Assembly: GCA_019744945.1 (NCBI GenBank)
Contig: JAIETT010000085.1
Location: 1-50,462, forward strand
Length of the DNA: 50,462 nt
Origin: Burkholderiales bacterium
GTDB lineage: Bacteria; Pseudomonadota; Gammaproteobacteria; Burkholderiales; UBA11063
Direction of reading: 5' to 3'
The notes below the pieces were generated by a model, which did not search any database, was not told where the DNA came from, and was given only the letters and a program-made list of their open reading frames with translations. How positions within the stretch are numbered: the stretch's first letter is position 1; each line of letters opens with the position of its first letter. Shown here one piece after another: positions 1,077 through 40,799 of the stretch. The position numbers were made by a program, and so were the translations under genes.

Positions 1077-2240
1077 CTATTCGTAAACTCCTTTTAATTT
1101 ATACCCGTCCTTTAAGCTGCTATCTGGAATCCATTTAGCATAAACGTTATATACCATTTGAACGTTGGCATGTCCAAGCTGTGATGCAATCCATGCAGGC
1201 AATTCTCCATTACTTAATAGCATACTTGCATAACTATGTCTAGTTTGATACGGGTAGCGATAACGAACTCCTGCGGCCTTTAATAATTTTTTCCAGTGAT
1301 AGCGTATTTTTTCACTATCTAGCCACCGTTGATTTGTATTAGGATTGTGGAATACAAAGTTATTTGCCATTTCCGTAAATTTTTGCTGGTAAATTAATGC
1401 CTCAGTTGCCTTTGGTAACAATAAAACTTTTCTAATTCCAGCTGAAGTTTTAGGGGATTTTTCTTGTCCTTCAACAATATTGTTTGTTATATTTACCACG
1501 CCAGCACTAAAATCAATATCAGACCATCGTAGAGCGATTAATTCCCCAGTTCTTAACCCGGAGTAAAATGCGAATTGAATTAAGTTTTTTAATTGGCCAG
1601 TTGCATGATTAATGATAATATTTTTTTCCTCTTCATTAAAAGGGTCAATCTCTTGTTTTTTTGGCAATGAAATATCTGTAATTAGAGATTCAATTCCAGC
1701 ATTATCAAATGGATTGATGCTGATATATCCAGAGTGCACCGCTTCCTGCAATATAGAACGCAGTGGTGTTAATTTATTGTAAAATGTCTTGGAGCTTAAT
1801 TCTTGCATTAATACCCATTGACGAAGTATTTTAGGCGTTACTTCATATAATTTGTATTCACCAAGATCAGGAATTAACTTATTTTTGATAATTTGCTTGT
1901 AACCATCATATGTAGATTTTGCCATATTGCCAACATCATGTCGCCGTTTGTAAATTGCAAGCTGAGTTAAAAGCAAATCAGCACAAGTTATTGTTGTGCT
2001 GATTGGTATAAACATCTTTACTCTTTTTGAGTTTGGAAAATGCCGTTTATAGTCGAATTTATTTTGTTCAATTTCCAATTCAATAGTTGCTTTTAATCTA
2101 ATGGCGTATTTGATATTTTTTGGTGACGGTTCGAGCTTGAGAGTTTCGCGGCATCTGATGTTGTTATAATAAAAGTCTATCTGAATGGCGGTACCGCGAA
2201 TACGTACCCCAGATATTACCTCTTTCTGTTCTCTTCCCAC
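1077..2240 (-). CDS. int: tyrosine-type phage integrase
   Basis: Arm-type N-terminus, GLRTGELIALRWSDID, TRHSYASMLLSNG, LGHANVQMVYNVYAKW catalytic motifs. Confidence 0.95.
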   Translation of the reverse strand: MGREQKEVISGVRIRGTAIQIDFYYNNIRCRETLKLEPSPKNIKYAIRLKATIELEIEQNKFDYKRHFPNSKRVKMFIPISTTITCADLLLTQLAIYKRRHDVGNMAKSTYDGYKQIIKNKLIPDLGEYKLYEVTPKILRQWVLMQELSSKTFYNKLTPLRSILQEAVHSGYISINPFDNAGIESLITDISLPKKQEIDPFNEEEKNIIINHATGQLKNLIQFAFYSGLRTGELIALRWSDIDFSAGVVNITNNIVEGQEKSPKTSAGIRKVLLLPKATEALIYQQKFTEMANNFVFHNPNTNQRWLDSEKIRYHWKKLLKAAGVRYRYPYQTRHSYASMLLSNGELPAWIASQLGHANVQMVYNVYAKWIPDSSLKDGYKLKGVYE

Positions 2241-3269: not shown

Positions 3270-4121
3270 TTAAGCGATATAAACTTTGATTTTAGTTAAT
3301 TCAACAACAGCGTTCTTGATTGTTTCCAGTGTTTCATCAATAACATTTTCAACGTTAAGAATCTGTACTTTAAACAATAAACCCTTCGCGTCGTCGCCAT
3401 CAAAATTAGCTTGCCAAGCAATTTTAGCCTGCAATTGATAAGCTGGAATTTGCTTATCTGCTGGTAAGCGTGGATTAATTACGTTGATGTTTTCAAAAGG
3501 CTGCAAGGCTAGCGTAATATAATCAGGCAGTACAATTAACTCATTCGTTGTATTACCACCGGTTGTAGTTTTGCGATAACTAAGATTTTGACCACCACCG
3601 CGAGTTGCTTCAGAATCAAACACATGTGATACAGTTGCACGAAAGTTTTTAACGAGAGTTAAAATTTCAGATTGACTTGGATCAATGATCTCATTAAGTC
3701 CGGTATCACAGAAATCAGCAAACGCTTTTTGTTTCATCCACTGGTTATTTGCACCTTGCCAAATTTTCCAGCGATTAGATAACTGAATATTAAACACAGC
3801 AACGTGCTCACACCAACGGGGATTTTCTTTATCGTGGTAATCAAAGTATACTTTAATTGATTTACTACCGGCAAAGCATACCGTTGATTCATTTTTAAAG
3901 TCATTTACGTAGTCGATAAAACCACGCAAATCGTTGAATTCACGATTAGTTACAATTCTACGTGGTGCTACTGCAAATTTTTCTAAGTCAATAAGTTTTC
4001 TAGAATCATGACTTAAAATAACTGTTGGCATACCAGCTTCATCAGTACCTACAACTTCATGAGTTGAAACATTTTCTAGAAATGTTTGTAAAATGTTTTG
4101 TTCTTGATTGGTATTGCTCAT
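3270..4121 (-). CDS. DUF2303 (YfdQ-like) phage protein
   Basis: Overall sequence character (VSHVFDSEATRGGGQNLSYRKTTT..., FADFCDTGLNEI). Confidence 0.7.
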   Translation of the reverse strand: MSNTNQEQNILQTFLENVSTHEVVGTDEAGMPTVILSHDSRKLIDLEKFAVAPRRIVTNREFNDLRGFIDYVNDFKNESTVCFAGSKSIKVYFDYHDKENPRWCEHVAVFNIQLSNRWKIWQGANNQWMKQKAFADFCDTGLNEIIDPSQSEILTLVKNFRATVSHVFDSEATRGGGQNLSYRKTTTGGNTTNELIVLPDYITLALQPFENINVINPRLPADKQIPAYQLQAKIAWQANFDGDDAKGLLFKVQILNVENVIDETLETIKNAVVELTKIKVYIA

Positions 4122-5935: not shown

Positions 5936-6304
5936 TTAATTAGTATCAAATTCTGAATCAATTTTGATTTGGTTAGTTTCGCCAGTTTTAGCTGTTGCAC
6001 AAATTTTACCAGGCACTTGTTTGTGCTCAGTGGGATTCAGTGCGGGATTTTTAGTTGTAACCTCAGCTAATTTTGGTTTAGCCTTAAAAGCAATTGGCAC
6101 CAGAGTATTCATATTGCGCTCACGGTTAATTAATTCATCTAGTGGCGTTATTTCAAAGAAACCACAAAGCTCAAAATTATTAAACCCTGCTTTAATCGCT
6201 TTCTCAATAAACAATCTTCTATCACCTTTATTTTTAAAGGTAGTAAGAAGCAGCTCATCAAGTTCATCGGAAATCGTTACGTTTATTCTAGCCATCTTAA
6301 TCAC
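5936..6304 (-). CDS. ribbon-helix-helix protein, candidate ParR-like adaptor
   Basis: ARINVTISDELDELLLTTFKNKGDRRLFIEKAIKAG (RHH); directly downstream of and overlapping the actin-like gene by 8 nt. Confidence 0.65.
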   Translation of the reverse strand: MIKMARINVTISDELDELLLTTFKNKGDRRLFIEKAIKAGFNNFELCGFFEITPLDELINRERNMNTLVPIAFKAKPKLAEVTTKNPALNPTEHKQVPGKICATAKTGETNQIKIDSEFDTN

Positions 6305-7202
6305 CTAATAAACTAAAATAACCATTTACATTTGAATTTTCTGGCTCTGCGGCAAAGTAGAATTGTTTATTGTCAGGTAAATAATCAGGGGCATAATTTG
6401 CACCACCACCCGCAAAAATAATCACATCTGCACGATTATACAAATCTGAATTTTTGCTAATAAGTTGATTAAGCAGCATTTCAAAATAGATTTGTTTTTC
6501 TTCGTTAATCCACACCGATAAATCCCGCGATTCACCGCCGATAGCAATTTGGTTGGTCCGCATGATTCTTGCGACTTCAGCTTCAGAAGTCGAAACACCA
6601 AATTCGCGATTAATTAGTTTTTGGATTTCTTGAATTGGTTTATTTACCCCGTCACTAGTTGCCCATGCTTCGCTGGCCAGAGCTTTGCCATTTTCAAACG
6701 GTATCACATCCAGCGTATTAGTTCCAATGTCAACCACTAGGCATAATTGATTGGCCAACCCTTGAATTTTAGTTAAACAATCCAGATAAACACCTTTCCC
6801 TTGCGGTACCAGATTAATCTTAATATTATTCACACGGATTTTATCTACGACAAAATCAGTTAATCGTTCGGCAAACTCCTGCCGTTTGGACCAATTTATC
6901 AAACTGAGCCCCGTTACTAACTGAATTTCATTGCTTGGGTTAAACTTAGCGTGAAGAATGGCTTCAAATAATAGCAGTGGTGCATACTTGAGCAACCAAC
7001 TAATATCACGAGTAGTTGCGGCATTACGTACCGCCAGATCACCAACTAAATAATTTCCACCCTCAAATTCACGCGCTTGATTAAGCTCAATGCCAGCCTG
7101 AGATTTACGCGCATAGGCAATCGCCGATGGAAAACTGGCCACACATCCGTTGGTTTTAAATTTGGTGTAACCATAACCAATGTCACAAGCTATTTTTTGC
7201 AT
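6297..7202 (-). CDS. ParM/StbA-like actin-family ATPase
   Basis: CDIGYGYTKFK (phosphate 1), LVVDIGTNTLDVI (phosphate 2), VIIFAGGGANY (adenosine) motifs. Confidence 0.85.
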   Translation of the reverse strand: MQKIACDIGYGYTKFKTNGCVASFPSAIAYARKSQAGIELNQAREFEGGNYLVGDLAVRNAATTRDISWLLKYAPLLLFEAILHAKFNPSNEIQLVTGLSLINWSKRQEFAERLTDFVVDKIRVNNIKINLVPQGKGVYLDCLTKIQGLANQLCLVVDIGTNTLDVIPFENGKALASEAWATSDGVNKPIQEIQKLINREFGVSTSEAEVARIMRTNQIAIGGESRDLSVWINEEKQIYFEMLLNQLISKNSDLYNRADVIIFAGGGANYAPDYLPDNKQFYFAAEPENSNVNGYFSLLGD

Positions 7203-7460
7203 TTTTTGTCCTTTAAAATTACTAAATAATGATTGTCAGGTGGGGTTTCAAACCTACCCTATTAAGCCGCAACCCACTTGCCTAAAAATTCAGTGGTGTA
7301 AAATAAGACCGGTAAAACTGCAATCGTGCAGCTCGCACCAAAAATGTATGGCAAGTGATGTAAAAATTTGTTATAATAAGTTCTCATTTTTTTAAATTCC
7401 CTTTACAAAAATGATTAAAGCTCACTACTCTGAATAGTGGGCTTTTTTATTGTTAAATGA

Positions 7461-7756: not shown

Positions 7757-7982
7757 GGTTAGGTTGATTTATTACTGGGCGAGGATGAGTTGCAATCCAT
7801 TCCTCAATGAATGGTAGAATAGTTTGTCGCTTCCAAATATATCCACCAAATTTAATGTCGGAAGGTTGCGGTATTTTATTCGCTTTGCGTTGGTTGTGAT
7901 ATGTACCACGTCCAAAATTACACGCTTCACAAATATCATTAATCGTCCATTCTTCTTTTTGTTTTTGTTCATCACTTAACAC
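7749..7982 (-). CDS. AlpA/MerR-like HTH DNA-binding protein
   Basis: WTINDICEACNFGRGTYHNQRKANKIPQPSDIKFGGYIWKRQTILPFIEEW. Confidence 0.6.
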   Translation of the reverse strand: MLSDEQKQKEEWTINDICEACNFGRGTYHNQRKANKIPQPSDIKFGGYIWKRQTILPFIEEWIATHPRPVINQPNQP

Positions 7983-8257: not shown

Positions 8258-8355
8258 AATGGTTCCTTAATGAAAATAGTTAAATTAATGATGCACCCTT
8301 AGTGATTGTTATAATAGAGGTCTCACATTCTAATAACTTTCAAAAAAGGCACATC

Positions 8356-8772
8356 ATGGATGTAACTAAGATATTAAGTATTCAAGCCCTAGATTTTGAT
8401 ATTTGGGGATTTCATGTAAAGGCTAATTTAATCATGTCTGTTTTCATTCTCTTTATTATTACTGGTTGTTGGATTTGGTATAAATATCATATTTCTAAGC
8501 AAGCTTTAATTAAAGAAAAACTTGCAAATGAGAAAAGTATTCGAGATTTTGAAATAGAAAAACAAAAACTGATTTTAGAAGAGGTAAAACTAAAGCAAGC
8601 AAAGTTAGACTCTAATCGTAAAAAACCAACATGGTGTCATGCTTGTGATGTTAATCGTGTATTTAAGGATTGGGTACCTGCACCAGGTTATGAAGATTAC
8701 ATCATTAAACGGTATATTTGCCCATGTTGTAAGTCAACGGACTTTTGTAATAAATCCGCTTCAAAAAATTAA
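8356..8772 (+). CDS. membrane protein with C-terminal zinc ribbon
   Basis: N-terminal TM (ANLIMSVFILFIITGCWIWYKY), coiled coil, CHAC...CPCC; ATG 8356 more likely than 8302. Confidence 0.55.
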   Translation: MDVTKILSIQALDFDIWGFHVKANLIMSVFILFIITGCWIWYKYHISKQALIKEKLANEKSIRDFEIEKQKLILEEVKLKQAKLDSNRKKPTWCHACDVNRVFKDWVPAPGYEDYIIKRYICPCCKSTDFCNKSASKN

Positions 8773-9302: not shown

Positions 9303-9521
9303 ATGAGATTACAAATTACAGTTGATGATGCATTAGGGCATGAATTACAAGCTAAAGCGCATGAGCTTGGCTTGTCTGTGAGTTCTTATGTGCGTTATAT
9401 GCTAAAGCAATCTACCAGCAAGCTAAATTTAATGGACTTAGCAATGGAAGATTTAAAAGAGGGTAGGGTTGAGAAAATTTCACTTGGTGATTTCAAAAAA
9501 CAACTCGGAGAAGCAGAATAA
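9303..9521 (+). CDS. RelB/DinJ-type antitoxin
   Basis: MRLQITVDDALGHELQAKAHELGLSVSSYVRYML RHH; overlaps toxin ATG. Confidence 0.85.
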   Translation: MRLQITVDDALGHELQAKAHELGLSVSSYVRYMLKQSTSKLNLMDLAMEDLKEGRVEKISLGDFKKQLGEAE

Positions 9522-9793
9522 TGCTTGAGTTAATTCAAACCTCAACATTCAAAAAGAGCTTAAAAAAATACAAGCATGATAAAAAAGTTAATCAAGAGTT
9601 AGCTTTTATTGTAGATTTGTTGATTAATGAAAAGACGATCCCAGAAAAATACAAGAATCATCGTTTAATCGGTAAATATGATGGAATGCTAGAGTTGCAT
9701 TTGCGCCCAGATGATTTACTAGTTTATTTTAAAATTAATGGTGATAGCATTACATTGGTTGCTATTGGGAGTCATGCTGATTTATTTGGCTAG
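9521..9793 (+). CDS. YafQ-family (RelE/ParE superfamily) toxin
   Basis: TSTFKKSLKKYKHD...YKNHRLIGKYDGMLELHLRPDDLLVYFKI...LVAIGSHADLFG. Confidence 0.9.
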   Translation: MLELIQTSTFKKSLKKYKHDKKVNQELAFIVDLLINEKTIPEKYKNHRLIGKYDGMLELHLRPDDLLVYFKINGDSITLVAIGSHADLFG

Positions 9794-13149: not shown

Positions 13150-13197
13150 TTACTCATTTGTACTCAGAATTGCACAATTTTGAGCACAAATGAGTAA
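13150..13197. promoter_or_regulatory. 48-bp near-perfect palindrome
   Basis: TTACTCATTTGTaCTCAgAATTGcaCAATTtTGAGcACAAATGAGTAA. Confidence 0.7.
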
Positions 13198-13311
13198 ATT
13201 GCGCTCAATTTTGAGCAAACAAGAACAATAAGCAGTAATTAATGCTGCTTGGTTCTCGCTCACATGAGCAATTAACCAAACACACTTCCAATTTCAATAA
13301 TTGGTGGTACA

Positions 13312-13405: not shown

Positions 13406-13963
13406 ATGACGATGCAAACATCAATTTACCTCATTGCCAATCAAAGCGTGGAATTACCAGACCCTAATCCATGTGGTGCAGGTTGGTTTTCAGCAAAACT
13501 CTGGACTGATCAAGTCCTTGGTATCATTAAATCACTAAATAAACCACCAGAAACTATCTTAAATATGTTCGCTGAAGTTAAGCGAGGCTATTACAAAGTT
13601 ATTAGCTTTCATGTAGTGCAGCATTGCTTTGTCAATAAAGCAATTTATCTGGACAAAATGGTAAATCCAGCTCTTTTGGAAAGTCAAGCTGCGCGGGTAT
13701 TCAATAAACTCTTTCGACCACTAAATAATCCTCTATTCTACGATTCTGATTTTAAATTATTGCATGAGACCAATAGTCTTGAAGTTTGGCAGCCTTGGAG
13801 CAATGAAGACATCGACGCTGAGTATGATGCTGCCAGTATTGTCACACTGAATAAATTTGATATTAGTTGGTCAATACACAATTTAAAGATGATGCAGTAT
13901 GAGTTAAATACTGTTCGTGATTCATTAATGGAGCAGGGTAACGCAGCAAGGAGAGCAGCATGA
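13406..13963 (+). CDS. hypothetical early phage protein, 185 aa
   Basis: Good RBS (taggag); overlaps next gene ATGA. Confidence 0.65.
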   Translation: MTMQTSIYLIANQSVELPDPNPCGAGWFSAKLWTDQVLGIIKSLNKPPETILNMFAEVKRGYYKVISFHVVQHCFVNKAIYLDKMVNPALLESQAARVFNKLFRPLNNPLFYDSDFKLLHETNSLEVWQPWSNEDIDAEYDAASIVTLNKFDISWSIHNLKMMQYELNTVRDSLMEQGNAARRAA

Positions 13964-14817
13964 GATATGTAATTGATGGATTATTGCAAACCAAAATTAT
14001 TGAGTATAAGCTTAGCGAGCGCGAAAGAAAATTACTTGAGTTTATTTCGGCAATTGGGGCTGGTAAAAATACCGTTCGCGAACAATTTGCTGGTATTAGC
14101 TATTTTTGGTTGAATTATGCAAAATTTATTGCTGAGTATGAATATTTAGAAATACCAAATACTAAGCAAGTTGGTAAGCATGTTAAAGATTTGGTGGATA
14201 AAGGTTTAATTCATTTACACACAGAGCGCAGCCCTAAAGGTGTTTTTACTTTTGTAACTTTTGCAAAAGAGTATTATTCTCTGCTCTCTAGTAATCCAGA
14301 TAACTATGATCAAACTACTCCGATTTTAACATCAGATGACTGCGATTCAGAGCAAGACGACTACGCTTCGGAGCGCAGTCCTTTACCCGTAGAAGCGCAG
14401 TCGTTTGGGGGTCAAAAGCGTAGTCATAAGATCCAGCCTACTAAGAACATACCTACTAAGATCCAAATAGAACAAAAAAATACTAAAAAAGAAAATCCCG
14501 TAAAGGATGAGTTGGTTTTTAATTTTGAAGAATTTAGTGAAAATGAAGTTAGGTCTATTCACGAATGGTTTGCTTACAAAAAAGAGCTCAAAAGTTTTTA
14601 TAAAACTCAAGCTGGTTTAAACAAATTTAGAACTACGCTGCTCAACTTCAAACGAGATCAGCAGAGTATCGTAGCTTTAATCGACTATGCCATCTCACAT
14701 GAATGGCAAGGTGTTTACCCAGCTAAAGGTGCTGCATCTACTCAATTTGCAGCAAAAGAAGAAGCTAATATCCCCATTTTCACCGTTGCAGCAGAATTGG
14801 ACCCATTCCTATCATGA
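13960..14817 (+). CDS. winged-helix replication initiator-like protein
   Basis: LSERERKLLEFI...KHVKDLVDKGLIHLHTE; precedes helicase gene. Confidence 0.55.
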   Translation: MRYVIDGLLQTKIIEYKLSERERKLLEFISAIGAGKNTVREQFAGISYFWLNYAKFIAEYEYLEIPNTKQVGKHVKDLVDKGLIHLHTERSPKGVFTFVTFAKEYYSLLSSNPDNYDQTTPILTSDDCDSEQDDYASERSPLPVEAQSFGGQKRSHKIQPTKNIPTKIQIEQKNTKKENPVKDELVFNFEEFSENEVRSIHEWFAYKKELKSFYKTQAGLNKFRTTLLNFKRDQQSIVALIDYAISHEWQGVYPAKGAASTQFAAKEEANIPIFTVAAELDPFLS

Positions 14818-16091
14818 AAAATATCGAATTAAATCTAGCTAGTTGTATCGTAGCTGACAATAGTTTGTTCAATCAATACCGTGGCAAGCTACAGCCTGAG
14901 TTTTTCGCTGATGCGGCTGTAAATCACTTAATAAAATGTTTTCATAACTCAGTTAATCTGCAAATTACTCCAGCGGTAGTTCGCGATTATTTCAAGTCAA
15001 ACATTCAACTGGATTTAACGCCAAATTTAAGCCAGTTCACGGCAAATTTACAGCAGTTGATGAAACAACATCAAGAGCGTTTACTGCAAGATACCGTGAT
15101 GTCATTTATGGCTGAGTCAATGACGAAACCGCAAGACTTGTTAGCTAAAGAAATGATAGTTAAACTCTCTGAAATCATTGATTTAACTAAGCTTGAAGCT
15201 GATAACGTTGTCGATCGTAATTGGTTGCTTGGCAATATTCAAGATGTTTATGAACATCAATCTGACTACATTAAAACAGGTTATGCGGTGATTGATAACC
15301 AAACGCCAATTGAAGTTGGTTCGGTAGTAGTTTTAGTTGGTAACACTGGCACAGGTAAATCAACTGTTGCCATGAATATTTACACGCGGATGTTGATGCT
15401 TAAGCAAAAAGGTATTTACGTTTCTATGGAAATGACTGAGCGCTCAGTTGCTAAACGTATTTACAACATTTATGCTGAAAAAAAACTTAAAAAAGATAAC
15501 ATCAGCGCAACTGATTTGGACAAGGTTTATGATGGATTTGCCAACTCAGATGGGCACATGATTATCGTTGAACCACGGCTAGATATAAACATTTTAAAAC
15601 GGCATATTTTAGCCTACAAAAAAGCAGGGTATAGCTTTGCTATTGTTGATCATTTACACCGCATGAAACTTCGTCCAGGTTGCCAGAAACATGAGGGAAT
15701 TGCTGAAATTATGCGTGAAATTCGCAATATTTCAATTGAAAATAATTTTACTATTTTTGTTTTAGCACAGGGCAAATCCGACAATGTCAAGAGCATAACG
15801 AATAATCGTTTAGGATTTGACGGTATTGCTGGTAGTCAAGAAATTAGCTGGGAAGCTAACTATATTTTTATGTTGCATCGTGAAGCATATTTTAGAGCCC
15901 AAAAAGGTATGGCTGCTAAGGTTCCTGATGCTATGCGTTGGATTACAGAGGTTAATTGCGTTAAAGCCCGTGAGAACGAAGATACAGGGGAGTCGCTGCT
16001 ACCATCGTTTTGTCTCTCGTATCGCGGCGGTGCATTACGTGAATCTACTGGTGATGAAACGGTGGAGTATCGTTTGTCTTTAAACAGTTAA
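14814..16091 (+). CDS. DnaB-like replicative helicase
   Basis: Walker A GNTGTGKST, SMEMTERSVAKRI, AIVDHLHRM, VLAQGKSDN. Confidence 0.9.
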   Translation: MKNIELNLASCIVADNSLFNQYRGKLQPEFFADAAVNHLIKCFHNSVNLQITPAVVRDYFKSNIQLDLTPNLSQFTANLQQLMKQHQERLLQDTVMSFMAESMTKPQDLLAKEMIVKLSEIIDLTKLEADNVVDRNWLLGNIQDVYEHQSDYIKTGYAVIDNQTPIEVGSVVVLVGNTGTGKSTVAMNIYTRMLMLKQKGIYVSMEMTERSVAKRIYNIYAEKKLKKDNISATDLDKVYDGFANSDGHMIIVEPRLDINILKRHILAYKKAGYSFAIVDHLHRMKLRPGCQKHEGIAEIMREIRNISIENNFTIFVLAQGKSDNVKSITNNRLGFDGIAGSQEISWEANYIFMLHREAYFRAQKGMAAKVPDAMRWITEVNCVKARENEDTGESLLPSFCLSYRGGALRESTGDETVEYRLSLNS

Positions 16092-18349: not shown

Positions 18350-18549
18350 TTGAAAACTCCTTTGTCTAGCGGTTAGCCGCTTCCGATATACATGGCTTTT
18401 TTTATATCTATACCTACCTATAGGTGTGGTTTCAAACCTACCCTAAACTTGCCGCGGTTTCAAACTATAGCAAGAACCAATGGCAGGAGAGGGCGAATAT
18501 AATACCCGCAAGGGGAATAAGCCTAGCCGTCTAGACACGGTGTTTTCAA
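18350..18549 (+). ncRNA. C4-like antisense/leader RNA, copy 1
   Basis: TTGAAAAC...TGTCTAG (seg1) complementary to CTAGACA...GTTTTCAA (seg2); located between promoter and Rha-type gene. Confidence 0.65.
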
Positions 18550-18622
18550 CTCCTGCCTTACCCAACAATTTGAAAACTTGTTTGGTAAGTTATTGAAAAC
18601 AATCTATGTCTAGGATCACATC

Positions 18623-19801
18623 ATGTCAAAAAATCAACTACCAATGGCGATAAAACCATCCACAACACCTAAACAACACATTCTGACTAATTTACTTAAC
18701 TGTTTCACCTTTGTGGATGTTGAAAAACAGTTAGTTATCGCAGCACCAATATTCCTACATCTTGGATATGATGAGGAATCAGCTGAGATGGTTTTATCCC
18801 AGCCGATGGTGCAACAATATACTAATTGCGCTGGATTTACCCCACGCGAAACATCATTTATTCGCATAGCTCAAATTGGTGAGCTAATTGTCAATGCGCC
18901 AAAAACTAAATATGTTGCTCACATCCTTGAATTTGTAAAAAACACACTAATGCCATTATTTAAGTCGCAGCAGCAAACTCAAGCGCAGATTAACTCTGAT
19001 TTTAGCCAAGAAATTACATTCAATCCAGTTAATGCAAATCAACCATTAACCATGTCGAGTTTAGAGATTGCTACGATGTGCGATAAAGAGCATCGTAACG
19101 TAATGGCGGATATAAAAAACATGTTTGAACAACTAGATATTAGTAGCGCTGATTTTTCAGCTGTATATAAAGCAAGCAATGGAAAGATGAATCCATGCTT
19201 TAATTTAGACAAAGAAATGTCATTGACCTTGGTTACCGGCTACAACGTCACTTTACGCCATAAAATCATTAAGCGCTGGCAAGAATTAGAAAATCAATTA
19301 ACTGGCGGTATGCCGCAAATTAGCGCCCAGCCAGTTGCTGTTGCACCAGCTCCAACCCGTGGACTACCTAGTGCCAAAGATTTAGCTTTGATGGTGATCA
19401 AATCCGAGGAAGAGAAAGAATCATTGTTAATTGATTATAACTTTCTGAGCGATACGCTTTGCCAGACGATTAGAGAAAAATCTGCAATTAGTTCTAAGCG
19501 TGAAGCATCGGTGATGGGTAAATTAGCCCGCGCCAATGATAAAATCCGTCGGCTGGAAGCGCAAGACGTGCTGGATCTAGATGGTGAAAAACTATCTTTG
19601 ATGCAAATTGCGAATAAATTGAACGTTGCACCGAATGCGATTGCTGCGGTGGTTGCACATTTGGGCATTCTTGGCTTATCTGCACTTGGCGAAGCTCGCT
19701 GCGTCGGTAAAAATAACGGCAAAGATGTAAGAGACTGGTTTTACAATCCTATGGCGGTAATCTTAATTCAACAAAATTTAGAAAGAGGTAAATTATTATG
19801 A
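18623..19801 (+). CDS. Rha-type phage regulatory/antirepressor-like protein, copy 1
   Basis: LTMSSLEIATMCDKEHRNVMADI...GYNVTLRHKIIKRWQELE (Rha domain) plus distinct N- and C-terminal domains. Confidence 0.85.
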   Translation: MSKNQLPMAIKPSTTPKQHILTNLLNCFTFVDVEKQLVIAAPIFLHLGYDEESAEMVLSQPMVQQYTNCAGFTPRETSFIRIAQIGELIVNAPKTKYVAHILEFVKNTLMPLFKSQQQTQAQINSDFSQEITFNPVNANQPLTMSSLEIATMCDKEHRNVMADIKNMFEQLDISSADFSAVYKASNGKMNPCFNLDKEMSLTLVTGYNVTLRHKIIKRWQELENQLTGGMPQISAQPVAVAPAPTRGLPSAKDLALMVIKSEEEKESLLIDYNFLSDTLCQTIREKSAISSKREASVMGKLARANDKIRRLEAQDVLDLDGEKLSLMQIANKLNVAPNAIAAVVAHLGILGLSALGEARCVGKNNGKDVRDWFYNPMAVILIQQNLERGKLL

Positions 19802-19981: not shown

Positions 19982-21154
19982 TTATTGGCTTACCAATAAA
20001 TCAATGAGATCAGCATAATCCTGCAGTAGTTTTGCGCGCGGTTCGCTGAGGTGTGTCTTAAGGTATGATTTGTTTACGCCTTTTTGAACATGACCCAATG
20101 CCATGTCAATAACTTTATAACTGTGGTTATTGTCAGCCAATAAAGTCATTGCGGTACGTCGCGCATCATGAGGAGTAAATTCACCAATTCCATATTTCTC
20201 ACCCAATTGTTTACAGTAGCGGCATAGTGTATCGCCACTATAATGCTCTTCGCGACAATTAAATACATATTTTGCCGCAGGATGTTTTTGTCGTAATTCC
20301 TTCAGTTTATGTACCAGCTGAAGAGGTATGCGGACAATGAAATTATCAATGCGTTTGGCATTTCTCACGGTGACTTTTTGATTAATCAAATCAATATCAG
20401 ACCATTCAAGACTAAGTAATTCATTGCGGCGTAGCATAGTGATAAATAACATATAAATAGCTGTTTTAATTGTTATTGGTATGTCATCATCATTCCATAA
20501 ATTCTTAAATAACCCACCCAATTTATTTTCATTTAAATATCGCGTGCGAACATTTATTTTATATCTGGCTTTTATATTAATCTCAAGCTTTTGCATGATA
20601 TATTTTTCATCATAAGCAAATCTGAAGATGGCTTTTATCTCGCGGAGTAAAGTTGCTGCAGTTGATGGTGATTTATGTTTCACTCGGTCAATAACACAAG
20701 CAATATCGGTTTCGGTAATTTTAGAGATAATCGTGCTATTCAACAGCGCAGCTTTATTTAGTACGGCAACCAACTTTGCTTTGGATTGTGCTTTAAGTGA
20801 ACGTTTGCATGAATCAATATAGATATCAACTATAGTACCAAATGTCTTGCCGAGTTTGGTCTGTTCTTTCTCATGAGTGTGGACGTTAATACCTTTACGT
20901 ATTAGACTGCGCATTTCATCCGCCAGCACTCTTGCTTTACTTAGAGTAATGTCGCGAGCGTCACCAATTAGCTTCCAACTTAACTGTGTCTTGTCACCTA
21001 TTTTGCTTTGTGTTCTTAGCTTCCATACATACGAATGTTTATTTTTGAATAGGTATAAGTTATGACCATCATGTAGAGATGAACCAAATAGTGATTCCCG
21101 CATAAAGTCATTGATATTTTGTTTAGTGAGTAGTTTAGATTTTATCTTTGGCAT
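19982..21154 (-). CDS. second tyrosine integrase (P4-like, DUF4102-type N-terminus)
   Basis: LYLFKNKHSYVWKLRTQSK..., TMLRRNELLSLEWSDID, HDARRTAMTLLADNNHSYKVIDMALGHVQKGVNKSYLKT. Confidence 0.95.
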   Translation of the reverse strand: MPKIKSKLLTKQNINDFMRESLFGSSLHDGHNLYLFKNKHSYVWKLRTQSKIGDKTQLSWKLIGDARDITLSKARVLADEMRSLIRKGINVHTHEKEQTKLGKTFGTIVDIYIDSCKRSLKAQSKAKLVAVLNKAALLNSTIISKITETDIACVIDRVKHKSPSTAATLLREIKAIFRFAYDEKYIMQKLEINIKARYKINVRTRYLNENKLGGLFKNLWNDDDIPITIKTAIYMLFITMLRRNELLSLEWSDIDLINQKVTVRNAKRIDNFIVRIPLQLVHKLKELRQKHPAAKYVFNCREEHYSGDTLCRYCKQLGEKYGIGEFTPHDARRTAMTLLADNNHSYKVIDMALGHVQKGVNKSYLKTHLSEPRAKLLQDYADLIDLLVSQ

Positions 21155-39632: not shown

Positions 39633-40799
39633 ATGACTAAACAATTGCCAATGGCTATAAATTTGTCCATGGAATCAAAACAACACGTTTTAGAAAATCT
39701 TCTTAACTGCTTCACATTTGTTGACACCGAAAACAAACTGGTTATTGCTTATCCAGTCTTTTTGCATTTGGGGTATACCAAAGAATCAGCACAGGCAGTT
39801 TTATCTAAGCCGATGCTGTTACAATATACTAACCATAAAGGATTTGTCCCACGAGAAGATTTTTTCATTAGCATAGCTCAAATTGGTGAGCTAATTGTTA
39901 ATGCGCCAGAAGCTAAATATATATCTCATGTACTTGAATTTGTAAAAAACACGCTAATGCCATTATTTAAGCCAGCAGCACCTCAAACGTCACCAGAGAC
40001 AAATAAAATTGAATTAAATCCAGTTAAGGCAAGCGAGCCGTTAATGATGTCGAGCCAAGAGATTGCAAATGTTGTTAAACGTCGTCATGATAACGTAAAA
40101 CGCACGATGGAAATGTTACAGAACAAAGAGTTAATTAGTTTTACTCAAATTGAGGAAAACTCTGAAAGTAAAGTTGGCCGCCCTAAAACGGTATACCATG
40201 TTAACAAACGAGATAGCTATGTGGTAGTCGCGCAACTATCGCCAGAATTTACCGCCGATTTAGTGGATCGCTGGCAAGAATTAGAAAATCAGTTAGCTGG
40301 TGGTGTGCCACAAATTAGCGCACAGCCTGTTACTACAGCTCCAGCATTACCGAGCGCCAAAGATTTGGCCTTGATGGTGATCAAATCCGAGGAAGAAAAA
40401 GAATCTCTTTTAATCGACTATAATTTTTTAAGTAAAGAACTTTGCCAAACGATTCGAGAAAAGGCGCAAATTGGCTCCAAGCGCGAAGCTTCAGCATTAG
40501 GCAAATTAGCCCGCGCGAATGATAAGCTCAAGTTACGCGATGAGAAAATTTGTCAACTTGAGGCAAAATTAAGCAGCCCTGTGTCAGAATATGAGTATGC
40601 AACAATTTTAGCAGTGCAAAGTCGGCTGAAATATATAAAAGTTAGCGGTTTGAAATTAACTTACTTCTGTAATCGAAATGGTTTAGTTATTAAAGACATT
40701 CCAGATGACCGCTATGGTGCGGTACATTCGTATCCAGCGCAAGCATGGCGAGATGTGTATCAGATTGATATAAATGCAGTTTTAAATAAGGTAGCATAA
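39633..40799 (+). CDS. Rha-type phage regulatory/antirepressor-like protein, copy 2
   Basis: Shared N-terminus and linker with 18623-19801; LMMSSQEIANVVKRRHDNVKRTMEML...SKVGRPKTVYHVNKRDSYVVVAQLSPEFTADLVDRWQELE (Rha domain). Confidence 0.9.
   Translation: MTKQLPMAINLSMESKQHVLENLLNCFTFVDTENKLVIAYPVFLHLGYTKESAQAVLSKPMLLQYTNHKGFVPREDFFISIAQIGELIVNAPEAKYISHVLEFVKNTLMPLFKPAAPQTSPETNKIELNPVKASEPLMMSSQEIANVVKRRHDNVKRTMEMLQNKELISFTQIEENSESKVGRPKTVYHVNKRDSYVVVAQLSPEFTADLVDRWQELENQLAGGVPQISAQPVTTAPALPSAKDLALMVIKSEEEKESLLIDYNFLSKELCQTIREKAQIGSKREASALGKLARANDKLKLRDEKICQLEAKLSSPVSEYEYATILAVQSRLKYIKVSGLKLTYFCNRNGLVIKDIPDDRYGAVHSYPAQAWRDVYQIDINAVLNKVA

Follow-up and report, generated by a model that had tools for sequence, protein, structure and literature searches.

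A selected plasmid-type ParM with a probable ParR partner in an integrating prophage of Burkholderiales

What would a partition motor of the kind used by plasmids do in a phage that inserts itself into the chromosome of its host? The question is raised by a two-gene locus (Table 1) within a window of 50,462 nucleotides, one whole contig of a 3.0-Mb, 319-contig Burkholderiales assembly, in which an actin-like ParM and a small ribbon-helix-helix (RHH) partner had been predicted in the early operon of an integrated prophage. The locus is a variant of known systems, in which a plasmid-type ParM under selection is accompanied by a probable ParR in an integrating prophage.

The window contains a chromosomally integrated tailed prophage, with genes for a terminase, portal, head protease, major head protein, tail sheath and tape measure as well as a CI-like repressor. 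Its integration was borne out at the left end: host DNA at 888-1004 (93% identity to contig C56 and 98% to genome G002) stops partway through an FMN riboswitch and gives way to phage DNA, so that the window includes the left host-phage junction. The att site lies within the 5' half of the riboswitch, of which C56 (6619-6767) and G002 have intact copies, each with a remnant-like TTGTGACCAAATTGTGACC motif upstream. The right junction was not found in the window; by eye, the contig end (50300-50462) resembles the start of an IS200-type transposase, and positions 1-154 are a repeat common to several contig ends that resembles a transposase end. Among the window proteins scanned, no plasmid-type replication gene was detected, those found being phage O-like and DnaB-like. 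A sister prophage of 50.3 kb, in the genome of another species (G008), carries the same parMR pair in the same place. It is flanked by a 33-nt att repeat (39739-39771 and 89998-90030 of its contig), the second copy of which overlaps one end of a tRNA-Ser gene.

Table 1 Features of the left region and early genes of the window prophage.
Feature	Position	Strand	Evidence or remark
attL: host half of FMN riboswitch, then phage DNA	975..1004	+	Comparison with contig C56 and genome G002
Tyrosine integrase int1	1077..2240	-	Pfam Phage_integrase 1.8e-19, plus arm-binding domain
DUF2303 gene	3270..4121	-	Left-region marker common to window and parMR-less prophage C24
Terminator-like hairpin downstream of parMR segment	4474..4491	-	
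parR-like adaptor gene, 119 aa, predicted RHH N terminus	5936..6295	-	ATG 1 nt past parM stop
parM, actin-like ATPase, 301 aa	6297..7202	-	Pfam, PHROG, AlphaFold, Foldseek, pN/pS
parM upstream region, no helically phased repeats	7203..7460	.	Phase score z=-0.7, p=0.76
24-nt near-palindromic element, 36 nt upstream of parM	7238..7261	.	96% repeat at 18422-18445; 0 expected in shuffles
Terminator-like hairpin upstream of parMR segment	7735..7756	-	Same sequence upstream of sister parM
Divergent promoter/operator region of left region	8278..8369	.	Inverted TGATGYRCC repeats
Six TGAGY half-sites, about 10-bp phasing, upstream of replication genes	13152..13216	.	Candidate displaced centromere or early-promoter operator
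O-like initiator and DnaB-like helicase genes (phage replication module)	13960..16091	+	

Several further elements were noted in the prophage. A second tyrosine integrase (19982-21154) lies between an antirepressor gene and the terminase; it adjoins the terminase genes in both phages, is 89% identical to the sister copy and, given its low pS (0.36), was recently exchanged. Just upstream of the antirepressor gene, sRNA-Xcc1 (RF02221) scored above the gathering threshold at 18482-18565, an element that is 86% conserved in the sister. The prophage has two related antirepressor (Ant) genes (18623-19801 and 39633-40799), and a RelE-like toxin gene (9521-9793) beside a small upstream gene makes the region 9303-9793 a probable toxin-antitoxin pair.

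The first gene of the pair encodes a genuine ParM-type actin. Its product matches Pfam ALP_N (6e-13) and MreB-like_C (2e-12) above the curated cut-offs, far beyond chance, and phrog_691 'partition protein' (2e-35). The nucleotide-site residues (D7-G9-G11-K14; Q134; D158-I159-G160-x-N162-T163-x-D165; G265-G267) are invariant across 27 sequences, and the predicted ATPase motifs proved intact throughout: phosphate-1, connect-1, phosphate-2 and adenosine motifs are all present, together with a ParM-type fold. The best solved-structure matches of an AlphaFold model built on the 27-sequence alignment (pLDDT 89.2, pTM 0.85) were, by Foldseek, pCBH ParM, the archaeal actin Ta0583 and pSK41 ParM. In public data the protein is closest to the ParM/StbA proteins that plasmids of Campylobacter and Nitrosophilus encode (37-39% identity), each ahead of a small overlapping gene and on plasmids with F-type transfer genes. 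A single-sequence search of viral contigs returned no close relatives, and the profile search returned distant ParMs only. The host genome encodes MreB, and the phage therefore does not stand in for an actin that its host lacks.

Directly downstream of parM and on the same strand is the small gene expected of a parM-parR order, as had been predicted. The 8-nt overlap described between the two genes arises only with an upstream GTG (6304) as the start and is probably not real. Conservation with the sister phage places the start at ATG 6295, with a gap of 1 nt between the genes here and one of 2 nt in the sister. A two-sequence AlphaFold model of the partner places a strand at residues 3-8 and helices at 10-19 and 23-39, the order of an RHH topology, at poor confidence (overall pLDDT 47; about 50-64 for the strand-helix-helix part). 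The partner has no match in Pfam, PHROG, NCBIfam or the PDB, and Foldseek found nothing with this low-confidence model; a profile of plasmid partners gave a weak match in register over the N-terminal segment (E 0.007, probability 5.5%). The orthologue in the sister phage is 89 aa long and only 38% identical, compared with 79% for ParM, and the two have in common an N-terminal MAR-V-I-DE...RLFIE-AIK and a C-terminal PGK...ID-EF motif. The proposed RHH partner is plausible in its predicted order of elements, although unmatched in the databases, and we take an RHH fold to be likely.

Comparison with the sister prophage revealed how strongly ParM has been conserved. Across the two phages ParM has a pN of 0.129, a pS of 0.68 and a pN/pS of about 0.19, whereas the other genes are mostly 28-69% identical (terminase 60%, head protein 35%). 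Its pN was the lowest among 38 compared ORF pairs, the second integrase excepted, and no other vertically diverged protein is as well conserved between the two phages. Because its near-saturated pS is as high as that of the other genes, the conservation reflects constraint and not recent exchange, and such strong constraint between two diverged phages indicates that ParM is functional. The original prediction of a ParM/ParR-type pair in an integrating prophage holds up, with ParM clearly under function-preserving selection.

To assess distribution, we searched for ParM in three overlapping sets of genomes (24 from the genus, 400 from the order and 399 from the phylum, roughly 800 sampled), within which a close ParM occurred in the window and in G008 only. 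A relative with 31-32% identity was present in genome G001 and in contig C4; the G001 copy sits near conjugation genes, placing a distant ParMR on an integrative and conjugative element (ICE) of this genus. A relative of the terminase was found in genome G006, on a contig that stops beside the terminase gene, so that any parMR pair would lie outside it. Prophage C24, of the same assembly as the window, has a similar left region without parMR, comprising the divergent promoter, an HTH gene, a phrog_204-like gene, DUF2303, a 91% identical stretch and the integrase. The parMR pair is thus an accessory module, present or absent among related prophages. In a tree of 34 ParM proteins, with partners judged from the open reading frames beside each parM, both prophage ParMs grouped with the ParMs of plasmids and ICEs whose genes are followed by an RHH-like partner (support 80/89), and the solo ParMs of large virulent phages formed a separate clade (support 100/100); the exact position of the prophage ParMs is moderately supported, and some branches are long.

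Type II partition systems also include a centromere, and none was found beside parM, a point that the original prediction had not raised: k-mer counts, lag identity and helical-phase scoring revealed no parC repeats upstream or downstream of parMR. The region upstream of parM scored low in the sister (z=0.1) and in the window (Table 1), whereas the six nearest plasmid and ICE relatives scored 4.4 to 13.9, with a repeat phasing of about 9.5-11 or 21.5 bp; three more distant plasmids were also low in a 250-bp frame. A z of at least 4 occurs in about 3% of 250-bp phage windows, mostly through codon periodicity, so that only non-coding matches were weighed. The alpS motif TTAAnnG was not enriched near parM (3 observed versus 1.7 expected, p=0.24) and had no occurrence in the sister.

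Away from parM, the TGAGY array upstream of the replication genes stood out in both prophages. It is the densest TGAGY cluster in the window, where 0 of 40 shuffles reached six half-sites, and the orthologous region of the sister has five. A phased-repeat scan put the region at the top of the window and in second place in the sister, and in both it was the top non-coding stretch (shuffle z 5.0 and 4.9). Within the genus genomes searched, a full match to the array was found in these two genomes only. Prophage C24 is without the cluster, but the association of the array with parMR is weak because C24 also has a different replication region, and the window and sister phages are not independent samples for it. 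The array is the best candidate for a ParMR target, and a candidate only; it may equally be an operator of an early promoter. We consider it unlikely that the centromere has moved to the replication control region, with ParR binding the TGAGY array and thereby coupling partition, replication control and the lysis-lysogeny switch in trans; were this so, ParM filaments would take hold of the phage beside its replication genes. Repeats within the O-like gene (about 14338-14400; about 77069-77151 in the sister) were set aside as replication iterons and not a centromere.

The transcription signals of the left region qualify one part of the original prediction, which had placed the pair in a leftward operon ending at int. 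The pair does share its strand with the left region, at the end of which int lies, but terminator-like hairpins stand on either side of it (7756-7735 and 4491-4474) and suggest that parMR may be transcribed separately or depend on antitermination. The divergent promoter region is conserved in the sister (87%) and in the parMR-less C24 (82%), and its TGATGYRCC motif occurs without mismatch only here. The 24-nt near-palindrome is a possible operator; its second copy precedes the sRNA and antirepressor gene, and the sister lacks it and has a different palindrome, GAACTTTGAAAGTTC, at that second place. It was rejected as a centromere, as there are two copies only and none in the sister. In the sister, a stretch that possibly encodes a tiny membrane peptide is duplicated (87%; 6410-6490 and 7890-7966 of segment L010), before parM and after the parR region; a 41-aa membrane-like ORF before parM in the window (7262-7387) is unrelated to it.

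What, then, would the pair act on? Our preferred reading, which we hold to be just on the probable side, is a type II partition pair, a ParM filament with a ParR-like RHH adaptor, that is related to those of plasmids and ICEs, accessory in an integrating temperate phage, and active on excised, replicating DNA. Once the phage has excised or has entered a cell, its DNA would replicate as a circle to which ParR binds, and filaments of ParM would capture the copies, move them or spread them, so that copy number rises or the excised phage is not lost; the RHH fold of the partner, filament formation, the DNA target and the timing of expression are what we infer here. Action on excised DNA is proposed by analogy with SrpMRC and AlpAC. 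Sequence cannot separate the two roles originally suggested, an alternating phage-plasmid state and DNA positioning in the lytic phase, and the evidence leans towards excised, replicating phage DNA, as both prophages occupy attachment sites and have tyrosine integrases and phage replication genes. Against this reading stand the missing parC-like array in either prophage, the weak support for an RHH fold, precedents that are analogies, the poorly conserved adaptor, the hairpins between parMR and int, and a count of two carrier phages in roughly 800 genomes.

The same observations bear on other readings. That the phage alternates integration with life as a low-copy plasmid, which ParMR would partition, is suggested by the plasmid location of ParM relatives and by plasmid prophages such as B83, which have a ParM, an RHH gene and upstream iterons (PMC6669507). 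We regard it as rather unlikely, given the chromosomal attL of the window and the two att sites of the sister at tRNA-Ser, replication genes of the phage O/DnaB type with no plasmid initiator among the proteins scanned, and the lack, unlike in B83, of a parC beside parM. Decidedly unlikely, in our view, is that the small gene does no more than regulate its own expression, and that ParM is a cytoskeleton that carries no DNA and positions, for example, replication or virion assembly. A highly conserved ParM beside a poorly conserved adaptor, and no parC-like array at parM, would fit such a role, in which the solo ParMs of many virulent phages possibly work; yet the adaptor is kept at the same place with conserved motifs at both termini, and ParM groups with RHH-partnered plasmid ParMs. 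Finally, the pair could be a passenger cassette from a plasmid or ICE that does nothing for the phage, in keeping with its accessory nature, as seen in its absence from the related C24, its missing centromere-like repeats and the distant ParMR on an ICE of this genus. The low pN/pS of ParM, across phages whose other proteins have diverged so far, makes this highly improbable.

How an integrated prophage moves DNA with an actin is known mainly from CGP3, a cryptic prophage. The present locus would be a second case, in tailed phages of Burkholderiales/Neisseriaceae, with the standard plasmid gene order; its sister phage lives in another species, and a related prophage is naturally without the module. 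Together with very strong selection on the motor, this makes it directly testable whether temperate phages use partition machines once excised. The lack of a centromere beside the genes, and the conserved array close to the replication genes, narrow this to a precise question about binding.

Among known systems, type II ParMRC (R1, pSK41 and the ParM/StbA of the F-type pCIG1485E, C. upsaliensis plasmid 2 and Nitrosophilus pHRV44) is alike in its fold and in a parM followed by an adjoining adaptor gene on the same strand, the Campylobacterota plasmid proteins having the identities given above. It differs in its phased repeats upstream of parM, and plasmid parM lies just behind its own centromere and promoter, whereas the prophage gene lies inside a leftward phage gene block. 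SrpMRC of SXT/R391 ICEs belongs to the same operon as int and works on the ICE once it is excised (PMC4489591); it likewise pairs ParM with ParR on an integrative element, upstream of int and in the same orientation, and partition would matter only on excision. The ICE is not a phage, srpC repeats lie directly upstream of srpM, and srpR adjoins int, whereas several genes intervene in the prophage. AlpAC is needed for full replication and copy number of excised CGP3 (PMC4446434), and the parallel drawn originally with this corynephage stands in so far as both are an actin and a DNA adaptor in a chromosomally integrated prophage; it is looser than implied in that the CGP3 adaptor gene precedes the actin gene, its promoter has alpS repeats of the motif not enriched here, and its host is said to lack the MreB that the window's host has. 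Plasmid prophage B83 and its relatives are also temperate tailed phages with a ParM and an RHH-type neighbour gene, but are thought to be extrachromosomal, with a RepA-like initiator and iterons beside parM (PMC6669507). The solo ParM or 'MreB-like ATPase' proteins of large virulent Campylobacter, Vibrio and Acinetobacter phages belong to phrog_691 too (about 25-27% identity) but have no RHH-like adaptor gene beside them and form their own fully supported clade. Chromosome-encoded cParMR of Desulfitobacterium and C. botulinum likewise places ParM and ParR off plasmids, although the paper on it (PMC12270681), in whose text 'phage' does not occur, does not describe it as phage-borne, and its fold is only remotely similar to that of the prophage ParM (8x1i).
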